From contig MNUP01000086.1 in the NCBI GenBank assembly GCA_001871075.1, positions 1 to 13,905 on the forward strand: 13,905 nucleotides of DNA. Reading direction: 5' to 3'. This DNA is from Candidatus Desantisbacteria bacterium CG1_02_49_89 (GTDB taxonomy: Bacteria; Desantisbacteria; UBA1551). The notes beneath the pieces are model-generated. The model did no database searches and was not told the origin of the DNA. It saw only the letters and a program-made list of their open reading frames with translations. Shown piece after piece: positions 111 through 7,055 of the stretch (within the stretch, counting starts at the first letter, position 1; each line of letters begins with the position of its first letter). Position numbers and translations under genes: made by a program.

Positions 111-276
111 CTAGTGTGGTGTCACATAAATCCCTTGACATTTGATTCTGCTTTGAGTTGTCATTGCGAGCGACCAAAGGGAGCGTGGCAATCTCGATTT
201 TTAGGTCGAGATTGCTTCGTCGTTAACACTCCTCGCAAAGCCCAAATGTAAAGATCTGTTAGAGACACCACACTAG
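111..276. mobile_element. MITE-like palindromic element with 13-bp terminal inverted repeats
   Basis: The sequence CTAGTGTGGTGTC at 111-123 is matched perfectly by its reverse complement at 264-276. Inside these ends the two halves still resemble each other in inverted order (acatttg and ctttg-gag blocks on the left; caaatgt and ctcgcaaag on the right). At the centre is a perfect 10-bp stem, 188-197 with 206-215, closed by an 8-nt loop, and an outer pair tgcgag (165-170) with ctcgca (232-237). The core resembles the widespread bacterial dispersed repeat that begins GTCATTGCGAGCG and contains GCAATCTC/GAGATTGC. No transposase is encoded, so it would be moved in trans. Each end carries CTAG, which may include a TA or CTAG target duplication (the types made by IS630/mariner and IS5-like transposases); the palindromic site does not allow a decision. 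Confidence 0.75.
135..164 (+). promoter_or_regulatory. Possible outward promoter inside the MITE-like element
   Basis: TTGACA at 135-140 is a perfect -35 match. With an 18-nt spacer it is followed by TGTCAT at 159-164, which agrees with TATAAT at four of six positions. It points towards the metallophosphoesterase gene. The -10 match is weak and the region is a repeat, so this is only a candidate. Confidence 0.22.
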
Positions 277-2419: not shown

Positions 2420-3079
2420 ATGCACAATAAAGTAAAGGCGAACAAAGAAAGAAAAATCGGGATACTGGGCGGGACATTTAACCCCGTTCATAACGGCCAC
2501 ATTAAGATCGCGGAAGCCGCGCAGAAAAAACTGGGGCTTGAAAAAGTGATTTTTGTCCCGTGCGCACGCCCGCCGCATAAAACAGGGGAAAGACTGCCGC
2601 CTCCGGCGGACAGGTATGAAATGACAAGAATTGCAGTAAAGGGGAGCGCGGCTTTCAGCATATCGGATTCAGAAATAAGAAGAAAAGGCAAGTCATACAC
2701 CATTGACACCGTACGGGCTTTCAGGAAAGCTGACCCGGGGTCTAAATACTGCTTTGTAATAGGCGCGGACACGCTGCGCGAGATTCCAGCGTGGAGGGAA
2801 TACAGGAAACTGCTGAAGATGTGCCGTTTTGTTGTTGTCAACAGGCCGGGCTATTCAATTAAGGATTACTCGCCCCGAAGTACGTCGGGGCGAAATCTCG
2901 TCCCGACAAAGAGTCGGGCGGACAGATCGCAGATCGCAGATTTAATAAAGATAAAGATACCGGGAATAGATATTTCTTCCACTGAAATACGAGAGAAAAT
3001 AAAGGCGGGCAGGTCTATAAAAACGCTTGTTCCGTCCTGCGTTGAAAAATATATTACAAAGAAAGGATTATACAAATGA
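2420..3079 (+). CDS. nadD: Nicotinate-nucleotide adenylyltransferase with a repeat-derived internal insertion
   Basis: NadD adenylates nicotinate mononucleotide to deamido-NAD in NAD synthesis, in the cytoplasm. The nucleotidyltransferase signature [12 protein letters not shown] is at residues 17-28, with the HxGH-type His24 and His27. Other typical blocks are VPCARPPHK (46-54), SYTIDTVR (92-99), FVIGADTL (112-119), VVVNRPGY (138-145) and the C-terminal ISSTEIR (185-191). Between RPGYSIKDY and IKIPGID, where family members normally have a short variable link, about 25 extra residues (roughly 151-175) are encoded by two small palindromes and a heptamer repeat. The insertion keeps the frame and lies outside the catalytic motifs, so the enzyme is probably still active. 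Without it the protein would be near the usual 190-200 residues. The stop codon overlaps the ntpA start (ATGA). Methionines further downstream would cut the signature, so a start at or near 2420 is sensible. Confidence 0.94.
2871..2944. repeat. Double palindrome plus heptamer repeat inserted in nadD
   Basis: A perfect 8-bp inverted repeat, cgccccga (2871-2878) with tcggggcg (2885-2892), is followed by a second stem, cccgac (2902-2907) with gtcggg (2913-2918). Next come 7-nt units agatcgc (2924-2930), agatcgc (2931-2937) and agattta (2938-2944). On the minus strand the second stem region reads tccgcccg, then tcttt, cggg and cgaga. This matches the order of blocks in the palindrome at 6367-6407, so both probably belong to one dispersed repeat family. 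Confidence 0.7.
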
Positions 3080-4866
3080 AACAAGGAAGGATTATAAAGG
3101 TTTCAGGTCCGCTGATACTCGCCGATAAAATGGAAGATGCGAGGATGTATGACATTGTCAGGGTGGGTGCGCCAAGGCTTATAGGGGAGATAATAGAGCT
3201 TAAAGGCGACCGCGCTTCTATACAGGTTTATGAGGAAACTGCCGGCATAGGGCCGGAGGAGCCTGTTTTCCTGACGGGTGAACCTCTCTGCGTGGAACTG
3301 GCGCCGGGCTTGATCGGTTCCATATATGACGGGATACAGCGCCCGCTCGACGTGATAATGGAAAGAGCGGGTGAGTATATAGTCAGGGGAGTCGAAGCGG
3401 AAGCGCTGGACCGCAGGAAAAAATGGGAGTTCAGGGCGACGGCGAAAAAAGGTGACAGTGTTTCTCCGGGTGTTGTCCTGGGAGAGGTCCGGGAAACGCC
3501 TTCGGTTGTGCACAGGATCCTTGTTCCCTGGGATACCTCGGGGGTCATCGAAGAGATAAAAGACGGGGAATTCACGGTCAGCCAGGTCATCGCGAAATTA
3601 AAACTCCCCGGCGGCAAGGCCAAAGATCTGACGATGATGCAGAAATGGCCTGTCAGGAAACCGCGTCCTTATAAAAACAAGATGCCATCCCAGGCGCCCC
3701 TTGTCACAGGCCAGAGAATAGTGGATACATTTTTCCCGGTGACAAAAGGCGGGGTTGCCTGTATCCCCGGGCCTTTCGGGGCGGGCAAAACCGTAATGCT
3801 GCACGAGATCGCAAAATGGGCGGATGCCGATATAATTGTTTACATAGGATGCGGGGAGCGCGGAAACGAGATGACCGATGTTTTAATGGAATTCCCCAAG
3901 CTGAAGGATCCAAGGACCGGAGAATCGCTCATGAAAAGAAGCATTCTCATAGCAAATACCTCGAATATGCCGGTTGCGGCAAGAGAGGCATCGGTTTATA
4001 CCGGCATAACTCTTGCGGAATATTACAGGGATATGGGTTACGACGTTGCCGTAATGGCGGATTCCACGTCCAGGTGGGCGGAGGCCCTGCGGGAAATGTC
4101 CGGAAGGCTTGAGGAGATGCCCGGTGAAGAAGGTTATCCCGCATATCTCGGGATGAGGATCGCGCAGTTTTACGAGAGAGCGGGGCGGGTGGTAACCCTG
4201 GGGAATTTAGAGTGTCAACGTGTCAACGTGTCAACGTGTCAGAAAAGGGACCAGGAAACTGACCAATCGTCTGATCATCCAGTTATCCAATCGTCCAATG
4301 GCGGGAGGGAGGGATCGCTGTCAGTGATCGGGGCGGTTTCACCTCCGGGGGGTGATTTTTCAGACCCGGTCGTTCAGTCAACCCTGAGGGTAGTGAAGGT
4401 GTTCTGGGGGCTGGAAGACAAGCTCGCATACAAAAGGCATTTCCCTGCCATAAACTGGCTGTCAAGCTACTCCCTGTATCTGGATAATATCAGGGATTAT
4501 ATGGGCAAGAATATCGCTGGGGATTTCCTTCAGCTGCGAGGTGAAGCAATGGGCATCCTGCAGAAGGAAGACGAGCTTCTTGAAATAGCAAGGCTTGTGG
4601 GTGTGGAGGCGCTTTCCGTCGCGGACAGGCTGACACTTGAGGTCGCGCGTTCCCTGAGGGAGGATTTTCTCCACCAGAACGCCTTCGACCCGGTTGACGT
4701 GCACTCTTCTCTTAAGAAACAATACAGGATGCTGAAGCTGATCATGGAGTTCTACCGCGATTCGTCCGAAAAAATAAAAGGCGGAGCCACGGTTGAGGAA
4801 GTTGTCGCTTCACCGGTCCGGGAAAAAATGAGAAAAGCAAAATTCATGCCCGAGCAGGAAATCTAA
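3076..4866 (+). CDS. ntpA: V/A-type ATPase catalytic subunit A with a 31-residue repeat-encoded insertion
   Basis: Subunit A carries the catalytic nucleotide sites of the V/A-type ATPase head, which couples ATP turnover to H+ or Na+ transport across the inner membrane. The 596-residue protein shows the N-terminal beta-barrel ([14 protein letters not shown]), the A-subunit non-homologous region (about 110-190), the P-loop GPFGAGKT (232-239), the catalytic-Glu motif GERGNE (Glu261), the Walker B region [15 protein letters not shown] (Asp329) and [10 protein letters not shown]. Residues 378-408 (4207-4299) are an extra block inside the normally short [12 protein letters not shown] to GREGSL link, encoded by 8-nt repeats. 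Removing it gives 565 residues and a continuous family motif. It leaves all visible catalytic motifs intact. The start overlaps the nadD stop in ATGA, with GAAAGGA upstream. Subunits B and D follow; no other subunits are adjacent. Confidence 0.96.
4207..4299. repeat. Octamer-repeat insertion within the subunit A gene
   Basis: Two octamer arrays fill this 93-nt block. The first is gtgtcaac three times (4212-4235) plus gtgtcaga (4236-4243). The second is caatcgtc, tgatcatc, cagttatc, caatcgtc (4264-4295) and a partial caat. The block is flanked by AAT on both sides (4204-4206 and 4297-4299), which could be a 3-nt duplication. The length is a multiple of three and no stop codon occurs, so the gene stays open. 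Confidence 0.85.
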
Positions 4867-4869
4867 AAA

Positions 4870-4940
4870 AACGTCGAACGTCGTAAGTCATACGTCTTAC
4901 GAAATACAATTTTTAAACGTACGACGCCCGACGCACGACG
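4870..4940. repeat. Heptamer repeats in opposite orientations between ntpA and ntpB
   Basis: After the ntpA stop come aacgtcg, aacgtcg, taagtca, tacgtct, tacgaaa (4870-4904). After a T/A-rich gap there follow tacgacg, cccgacg, cacgacg (4920-4940), whose complement repeats the CGTCG core of the first arm. Segment 4872-4885 can pair with 4920-4933 at 12 of 14 positions. A competing hairpin, tcgtaag (4881-4887) with cttacga (4895-4901), uses part of the same arm. The structure could modulate expression between the A and B subunits, but that is speculation. Confidence 0.65.
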
Positions 4941-4951
4941 GTAATTTAGTG

Positions 4952-4967
4952 AAGGGAGGGGCAGTTG
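4952..4967 (+). promoter_or_regulatory. Ribosome binding site and TTG start of ntpB
   Basis: A strong purine tract, AAGGGAGGGG (4952-4961), lies 3 nt before TTG at 4965. An in-frame TGA at 4950-4952 rules out any earlier start. The next residues match the usual N-terminus of the family, so TTG is the best initiation codon. Confidence 0.75.
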
Positions 4968-6350
4968 TTAAAGGAATATCTTACGATTTCATCGATAGCA
5001 GGACCTTTGATACTTGTCAGCGGGGTCGAGGGAGTTAAATACGGTGAACTGGCAGAGATAGAACTGCCTGACGGCAGCCTAAAGAGGGGAAGGGTCCTTG
5101 AGGTTTCAAGAGAATCGGCGCTCGTCCAGCTGTTCGAGGAATCACAGGGCCTGGATGTTTTTAAGAGCCGGGTCAGGTTCCTCGGCAAGGGCATCGAACT
5201 CGGGGTTTCTGAAGATCTCCTGGGAAGGATCTTTAACGGACTGGGTTCGCCCATAGACGGAGGGCCGGAACTTATCCCGGACAAATACATGGACGTAAAC
5301 GGGAATCCCATAAACCCGTTCGCCCGTGACTACCCCCAGGAGTTTATCCAGACAGGCATTTCTTCCATAGACGGCCTGAACCCGCTTGTCAGGGGACAGA
5401 AACTTCCGATATTTTCGGGAAGCGGTCTGCCGCACAACCAGGTCACCGCACAGATAGCAAGGCAGGCACGCGTGCTGACCGCAGGCGGCGGCAGTTCAGG
5501 CGGGTCTGAAAAATTCGGCGTGGTCTTTGCCGCCATGGGCATTACTTTCGAGGAAGCTTCGTTTTTCATAGAGCAGTTCCGCATTACCGGGGCCATAGAA
5601 CGTTCGGCGCTTTTCATTAACCTTGCAGACGACCCCGCGATCGAAAGGATAGCTACGCCGAGGCTTGCGCTTACATGCGCCGAATATTTTGCTTTCGAAA
5701 AAGACATGCATATTCTCGTGATCATGACGGACATGACCAATTACGCGGAGGCATTAAGGCAGGTTTCAAACGCCAGGAAGGAAATTCCGGGAAGGCGCGG
5801 TTACCCGGGCTATCTTTACACGGACCTTGCCACCATGTATGAAAGAGCGGGCAGGATAAAGGGCAAGAAAGGCTCGATAACCCAGATCCCCGTGCTCACA
5901 ATGCCCGAGGATGATAAAACTCACCCGATACCCGACCTGACCGGTTACATAACCGAGGGTCAGATAATCCTTAGCAGGGAACTGCACAGAAAAGGCATAT
6001 ACCCTCCCATAGACGTGCTTCCTTCTCTTTCAAGGCTGAAAGACAAGGGGATCGGCAGGGAAAAAACCAGGGCGGACCATGCCGACGTTCTCAACCAGCT
6101 TTTTGCCTGCTATGCGCGCGGAAGGGAGGTCAAGGAGCTGGCGGTTATCCTCGGGGAAGAAGCCCTTTCGGAGGCCGACAGGATCTACCTGAAATTTGCC
6201 ACGGAATTTGAGGAAAGTTTTATAGGGCAGGGTGAATACGACGAGAGAAGCATAGACAAAACACTCGATATCGGGTGGGAGATGCTGAAGATTTTCCCGC
6301 CTACAGAGCTTACGCGCATCCACGACGAATATAAACAGAAATATCTATAA
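4965..6350 (+). CDS. ntpB: V/A-type ATPase regulatory subunit B
   Basis: Subunit B alternates with A in the ATPase head and is the non-catalytic nucleotide-site partner. The 461-residue length is normal. The N-terminal barrel begins [20 protein letters not shown] (9-28). Where a catalytic subunit would have a P-loop, this one has the B-type [12 protein letters not shown] (148-159). Further family blocks are [13 protein letters not shown] (256-268), [20 protein letters not shown] (275-294), [20 protein letters not shown] and the C-terminal [12 protein letters not shown]. Translation starts at TTG. It follows ntpA after a 98-nt repeat-filled gap and precedes ntpD by 84 nt. A cytoplasmic, peripheral membrane-complex location is expected. 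Confidence 0.97.
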
Positions 6351-6434: not shown

Positions 6435-7055
6435 ATGATACTTGCGGTTAACCCGACAAGGATGGAGCTTCTCAGGCTCAGGAAACGGATCTTGCTGGCA
6501 AGGCGGGGCCACAAGCTTTTAAAAGACAAGCAGGATGAGCTGGTCCGCCATTTCCTGGTTGCTATAAAAGACTGGAAGGCGCTGCGTTCCAGAGTGGAAG
6601 AAGGGCTTGCCCGGGCTTCCGGGCACTTTCTAAAAGCGTATTTTTTTATGCGGAGGGAAGTGCTCGTGGAATCGCTTTATTCAAGCAGCGCATCGCTGGG
6701 GCTCAGGGTTGCATTCAAGCGCGTAACAAATCTCAGGCTGCCCGTGGTCTCCACTGAAAAAAGCGGCGACCCTTTCAATTACAGTTTTGTCGGCACGACG
6801 GGTGACCTGGATGCCGCGCTGGCGGTTTACTGCGGAGCAATAAAGGATATCATTGAGCTCGCCGGAACCGAAAAATCTATAATGCTCCTGGCTGATGAGA
6901 TCAAGAGGACCAGGCGCAGGGTGAATGCGCTTGAATACGTTCTTATCCCCAATCTCGAGGAGACAATAAGGTATATTTCCATGAAAATGGAGGAATTCGA
7001 AAGGAGTAACCTTACCCAGCTGATGAGGGTAAAGGAAATAGTGAGAGCCCACTGA
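6435..7055 (+). CDS. ntpD: V/A-type ATPase central-stalk subunit D
   Basis: Subunit D forms the rotating central shaft that links the A3B3 head to the membrane rotor. The 206-residue protein shows the hallmark N-terminus [30 protein letters not shown] (from residue 6) and the C-terminal [20 protein letters not shown] helix (about 164-190). Both are long amphipathic helices that pair as an antiparallel coiled coil; the middle part (70-140) is the more variable globular portion. A GAGGG ribosome binding site at 6427-6431 lies close to the ATG. It is the last V-ATPase gene here: the next gene is a TPR lipoprotein, not the I or K subunit that follows D in the Chlamydia and Borrelia order. Confidence 0.96.
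   Translation: [206 protein letters not shown]

Follow-up and report, generated by a model that had tools for sequence, protein, structure and literature searches.

Rickettsia palindromic elements, in the review account (PMC2229807) of the work of Ogata et al. 2000, are palindromes of 105 to 146 bp with stable hairpins, and these dispersed short repeats lie in frame within conserved protein genes, where they are read as extra residues. The TAACTGA heptamers of Beggiatoaceae, Cyanobacteria, and Bacteroidetes (MacGregor 2015, PMC4679880) are short direct repeats located at many intergenic sites and in a few open reading frames (ORFs), with one orientation barred by stop codons and with most in-ORF copies placed at the ends of proteins or in hypothetical ones. 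The short tandemly repeated repetitive sequences (STRR) of cyanobacteria and the long simple sequence repeats (LSSR), as summarized there from Mrazek 2007, are genome-specific accumulations of the heptamer class and are mostly noncoding. In Borgs, tandem repeats within ORFs have units divisible by three and give disordered segments, and a related replicon has nearly none (PMC9879509).

The window studied here (the whole stretch of 13,905 nt that was analyzed, from Candidatus Desantisbacteria bacterium CG1_02_49_89) carries short tandem arrays inside the gene for the catalytic subunit of a V/A-type ATPase (Table 1). As in the reviewed account of the Rickettsia elements, dispersed short repeats lie in frame within conserved protein genes and would be read as extra residues, but the insert consists of two tandem octamer arrays instead of a palindrome or hairpin of 100 to 150 bp, and RNA folding of its 93-nt block is at the shuffled level (z = -0.02), with no excess structure; an RNA hairpin or bypass element was rejected on this ground. 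The likeness to the TAACTGA heptamers lies in short direct repeats at many intergenic sites, with a few in ORFs and with one orientation barred by stop codons, and the differences lie in the number of units (one there, about 44 unit clusters among the arrays of this genome) and in the location of the copies inside core enzymes; identity with the TAACTGA family was rejected (0 dimers in 384 kb). As in the STRR and LSSR of the summary cited above, the genome has accumulated short units of its own, the same unit being repeated in tandem at numerous dispersed sites that are mostly noncoding; set against that summary, the arrays differ in having about four copies for periods 7 to 9, variation at fixed positions, and several percent of genes as carriers. 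The near absence from a related replicon and the disordered segments recall Borgs, whereas the units in ORFs are not divisible by three, being 8 nt in subunit A and 7 to 8 nt in most other carriers; such units are read in all three frames, and therefore the peptide is not a perfect unit repeat. Overall, the closest counterparts of the class are the short tandem repeats known from cyanobacteria and other bacteria, together with the Beggiatoaceae TAACTGA heptamers. We found no description in the open-access papers searched of arrays in quartets, or of such arrays in V-ATPase or tRNA synthetase, and both the quartets and this placement may perhaps be new to the literature.

Table 1. Features of the V/A-type ATPase locus, in window coordinates
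Feature	Position	Strand	Evidence or remark
nadD in-frame insert	2870..2947	+	GC-rich palindromes 2871-2892 and 2901-2918; CAGATCG array 2923-2941
V/A-type ATPase catalytic subunit A, 596 aa	3076..4866	+	carrier gene, uninterrupted ORF
Array 1, four octamers: GTGTCAAC GTGTCAAC GTGTCAAC GTGTCAGA	4212..4243	+	Tandem Repeats Finder (TRF) score 60, 100% match
Net added codons relative to the nearest relative (residues 380-404, 75 nt)	about 4213..4287	+	alignment; predicted disordered
Linker AAAGGGACCAGGAAACT, 17 nt, joining arrays 1 and 2	4244..4260	+	sequence
Array 2, diverged CCAATCGT type: GACCAATC GTCTGATC ATCCAGTT ATCCAATC GTCCAATG	4261..4300	+	TRF
Inverted heptamer array pair, ACGTCGN type	4871..4940	.	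intergenic, between the A and B subunit genes
V/A-type ATPase subunit B	4965..6350	+	PRK04196, 765 bits; single full-length match, without insert
V/A-type ATPase subunit D	6435..7055	+	profile search

The carrier gene was identified as subunit A by TIGR01043 (884 bits) and PRK04192 (870 bits), with both profile matches split at the insert, and by a Pfam ATP-synt_ab match; the P-loop GPFGAGKT and the catalytic motif are present, as expected of a full-length V/A-type subunit A. Pfam and PDB searches added nothing beyond the subunit identity. The gene lies downstream of ymdB, proA, and nadD and upstream of the genes for subunits B and D; elsewhere in the genome are genes for V-type subunits I and C. 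Apart from a distant ATPase, a genome-wide search for the F-type beta subunit (atpD) hit nothing but the V-type A and B genes, and all of these matches fell under the cut-off. Because no F-type beta exceeded the cut-off and subunits I and C are present, this is the only rotary ATPase found in the genome (93.5% complete), and the insert-bearing protein is its sole catalytic subunit. Intergenic spacers, such as the one between the A and B genes, are the usual home of such arrays. Upstream of ymdB, at window positions 128-240, an inverted repeat TCATTGCGAGCGACC...AGCGTGGCAATCTCG...CGAGATTGCTTCG is apparently another dispersed palindromic repeat, with similar sequence in two further loci (L250 and L255).

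The two arrays occupy, in frame, the LG-GS turn of subunit A, between the conserved blocks RVVTLGN and GREGSLSV. A sequence-only reading of this DNA had placed two octamer arrays inside the catalytic subunit, and TRF together with the uninterrupted ORF confirms this. In array 1, all three sense frames are open and TGA occurs in each antisense frame, and sense-strand GTGTCAAC arrays cycle through VSTCQRVN.

In a protein alignment with 73 homologues, the turn has 2 to 5 residues where measurable (34 rows were judged from printed segments only, as similarly short, and the rest were counted), versus 36 in the window. Two sequences depart from this range, one from a planctomycete with 10 residues and that of the nearest relative with 11 (G001, of the same order but a different family; within the phylum two genomes were compared, a single one of them from the species itself). 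Alignments of subunit A with PDB relatives and homologues split at the insert site. The G001 subunit A has 571 aa and is 25 residues shorter, in a locus with the same ProA-NadD-AtpA order. Its loop, TLGKLQNPSNDGKTGS, is ~6 residues longer than usual, so the lineage had gained about six residues before. The earlier count of 31 added residues thus stands against most homologues (excess of 31 to 34) but drops to 25 against G001; a slight earlier expansion of the loop in the lineage was out of reach of the sequence-only reading. As the other homologues have 2 to 11 residues in the turn, the site is length variable. The insert residues themselves were in none of the homologues examined, including the syntenic G001 locus, as the sequence-only reading had anticipated. 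The AAT triplets noted earlier on both sides of the block are no insertion footprint: the right AAT aligns with an AAT codon in G001 (Asn in an ancestral SND/SNG motif) and the left one with AAG, and because the right AAT is already present in G001, the flanks are not a target-site duplication.

An AlphaFold2 model of subunit A (52-sequence alignment) had a mean pLDDT of 86.5 and a pTM of 0.89 and matched subunit A of Enterococcus hirae V1 over 563 residues (Z = 45.8, rmsd 1.6). The pLDDT drops below 50 only over residues 380-401, which lie between strands 370-373 and 412-421, and in this prediction the V-ATPase core is intact and the insert is disordered. In F1/V1 heads generally, the strand that follows the insert site leads from the periphery toward the catch-loop region beside the central shaft, and by this analogy the insert loop should sit on the outer surface. 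The earlier suggestion that the insert lies on the outside of the head is therefore plausible, given the general structure of F1/V1 and the predicted disordered turn.

Both arrays belong to families dispersed through the genome. The GTGTCAAC dimer (GTGTCAACGTGTCAAC, at most two mismatches) has 120 forward and 125 reverse matches in the genome, versus none in the reversed control, and these 245 matches dispose of a chance repeat. The GTGTCAAC triplet (24 nt) was found 86 times in this genome and 0 times in 385 other genomes, including G001; a spread of the octamer to other phyla was rejected for this lack of triplets. The family of array 2, [C/T]CARTYRT, is smaller and more diverged, with 12 pattern matches genome-wide, two of which are array 2 itself. 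The heptamer AAATTGC was found in 1 other genome of 191. Similar heptamer and octamer arrays stand beside V-ATPase genes in the MAGs CSMAG_2684 and HyVt-354, a Parcubacteria genome, and a Saganbacteria genome (L031, L032, L043, and L059), and the array class may be wider in uncultivated lineages.

To describe the arrays as a class, we used a 384-kb sample (L171-L190 plus the window, ~15% of the genome) with genes called by a simple codon-usage caller. TRF reported 216 arrays of period 5 to 12, with 106 of period 7, 49 of period 8, and 25 of period 9; a second-order Markov control gave 4 arrays of period 5 to 12 and none of period 7 to 9. The 180 arrays of period 7 to 9 include 139 that are intergenic and 26 that are internal to 18 of the 291 genes; array density is 25-fold higher between genes than within them, and extrapolation gives a genome total of ~1,160. 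The insert is thus one of many, with ~6% of the genes in this 15% sample carrying arrays, which goes beyond what the window alone could reveal. The same analysis of 160 kb of G001 yielded 3 arrays of period 7 to 9, versus about 75 expected; the class is nearly absent from the nearest relative, and its arrival in this genome is therefore not datable by comparison. Inverted pairs of arrays of the AATTATG family (L177:12572-12675, L178:15834-15937, and L189:8081-8181), with arms of 29 to 31 nt and a spacing of 41 to 44 nt, resemble small hairpin or MITE-type elements, and none was found within genes. A GC-rich palindrome of the CCCGCCCAGCAAG..TTGGCGGGCAGG type lies inside octamer arrays (L173:12539-12600, L121, and L133), so that two small-repeat classes are nested.

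Carriers of internal arrays that exceeded NCBIfam curated cut-offs include ValRS (three arrays), AspRS, GlyRS-beta (two), HypF (two), TsaB (two), RibD, NadC, an NrdG2-type activase, and a TIGR03960 radical SAM protein with four arrays along an 854-aa fusion; a ParB-family protein is a further carrier. ValRS (L175:6078-8963) has at least one more insert, at residues about 210-233, HDAQLARQSCWAGRTTHD, which is not in G001 and has a second copy in its own genome (G000:C149:25228-25290). Next to subunit A, the nadD insert adds 18 aa that are missing from the syntenic G001 NadD, so adjacent genes hold two independent inserts. All 8 ORF-associated GTGTCAAC arrays in the sample have the stop-free strand as the sense strand; all sense frames are open in 20 of the 26 internal arrays, and 84 of the 139 intergenic arrays have no fully open strand. 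Internal arrays were detected via open frames, and the in-frame result is partly built into the method; the open-strand bias, partly circular as it is, would be what the survival of random arrivals leaves.

Copy number peaks at 4.0 to 4.5 for periods 7, 8, and 9 in a scan admitting hits from 1.5 copies. A TRF threshold artifact was rejected as the source of the four-copy peak, which persists when arrays of 1.5 to 2 copies are admitted. Exactly 4.0 copies were seen for 22 of 32 GTGTCAAC arrays, and 4.0 to 4.5 copies for 22 of 29 AATTATG arrays and 14 of 19 arrays of the nonamer CTNTRTAAA; the spread is broader in a few AT-rich or diverged families, and the quartets are mostly distinct strings. 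Variation is concentrated at certain positions of the unit. Among 69 intergenic GTGTCAAC units, position 3 is G in 45 and A in 24, position 7 is A in 48 and G in 21, and the other six positions have 5 changes together; in the nonamer, position 3 is fully degenerate. Positions 3 and 7 are unchanged in the in-gene GTGTCAAC units (in-gene versus intergenic, Fisher P values of 0.002 and 0.009 in one count and 0.0009 for position 3 in another, which are indicative, as the units of an array are interdependent). Quartets together with fixed variable positions are not what slippage and neutral decay would predict. We tentatively raise the possibility of an undescribed element class, with quartets of 7-, 8-, or 9-nt units in which all but one or two positions form a fixed framework, made or maintained by a dedicated mechanism; in-gene copies, the one in subunit A among them, would be escapes into coding DNA, frozen unvaried. 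A tandem-repeat-synthesizing reverse transcriptase (telomerase-like DRT10, PMC12632851) was considered as the generator and set aside as a weak lead with no link to the arrays. The only RVT_1 match in the genome (L259:2-622, at the end of contig G000:C119) is an incomplete reverse transcriptase with the motifs GIPIGNLTSQ and YMDDF, and its 207-aa open frame at the contig end scored under every curated cut-off.

We consider it probable (about 0.78), judging from the sequence comparisons and the predicted structure, that dispersed repeat DNA came to lie in a turn of variable length without breaking the frame, and that it is translated into a disordered loop that the protein tolerates. The block (75 to 93 nt) would be a composite of two short interspersed tandem-array elements of four to five octamers each, whose source families are dispersed mainly in intergenic DNA and which lodged in the naturally length-variable turn of subunit A. 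It would have survived because it has no stop in the frame used and a frame-keeping length, and translation would yield a disordered loop of ~25 extra residues that the ATPase tolerates. The view of the sequence-only reading that noncoding-type repeat DNA was turned into protein is supported by the mainly intergenic families, the absence of the insert from homologues, and the open sense strand. Arrival as a preformed element is what we infer, as are translation without removal and near-neutrality. This explanation has to accommodate the invariant in-gene GTGTCAAC units, which are unlike a random sample of the dispersed copies, and the near absence of the class from G001. Nor do the signs of a MITE, terminal inverted repeats and a target-site duplication, appear: no duplication was seen at 4212 or 4300, and the subunit A insert lacks the inverted array pairs that are present in intergenic copies. 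No mobilizing enzyme was found.

The main rival on origin is replication slippage, by which a chance duplication within the loop would have grown into the arrays on the spot, a process proposed for the heptamer-rich long simple sequence repeats of scattered bacteria (Mrazek 2007, in the summary of PMC4679880). That origin is unlikely here, as the same octamers occur at well over a hundred places, two distinct dispersed families adjoin in one loop, the copy numbers of all three periods peak without tailing off, and variation is limited to fixed positions of the unit. On function, the main rival is an adaptive insert, an external loop under selection for partner binding or for tuning of the motor; its location within the one catalytic subunit of the single rotary ATPase found, its stop-free maintenance, and the already longer G001 loop would suit selection, yet the residues are exactly those that a noncoding array encodes, they are predicted to be disordered, and comparable arrays occur in unrelated enzymes, all of which makes such a role rather improbable.

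Insertions in highly conserved cores would be easier to accept if the element were not in the product, that is, if RNA-level excision or ribosomal bypassing removed or skipped the block and no extra residues were made, and the mobile bypassing elements of yeast mitochondria provide a precedent for bypassing. However, every case seen has kept its frame and an open sense strand, neither of which removal would call for, each class I synthetase gene seen is a single open frame, and the insert lacks excess RNA structure, so we regard removal as very improbable. An assembly or binning artifact must also be weighed for a draft assembly of 150 contigs, since short repeats are prone to misassembly, but the arrays of 32 to 40 nt are shorter than a read, the flanks are unique, the gene order is shared with G001, the frame is kept, and there are many independent in-frame cases with different arrays; we find an artifact hardly credible.

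Judged by their sequences, the arrays look translated and tolerated, not engineered for a purpose. Neither slippage nor neutral decay accounts for the quartet rule and the fixed variable positions, and these features point to some mechanism of copying or recognition. Noncoding repeats with units that are not multiples of three have entered the sole catalytic ATPase subunit and several tRNA synthetases, and none of these was destroyed; a genome of this kind amounts to a natural insertion scan of its essential proteins.
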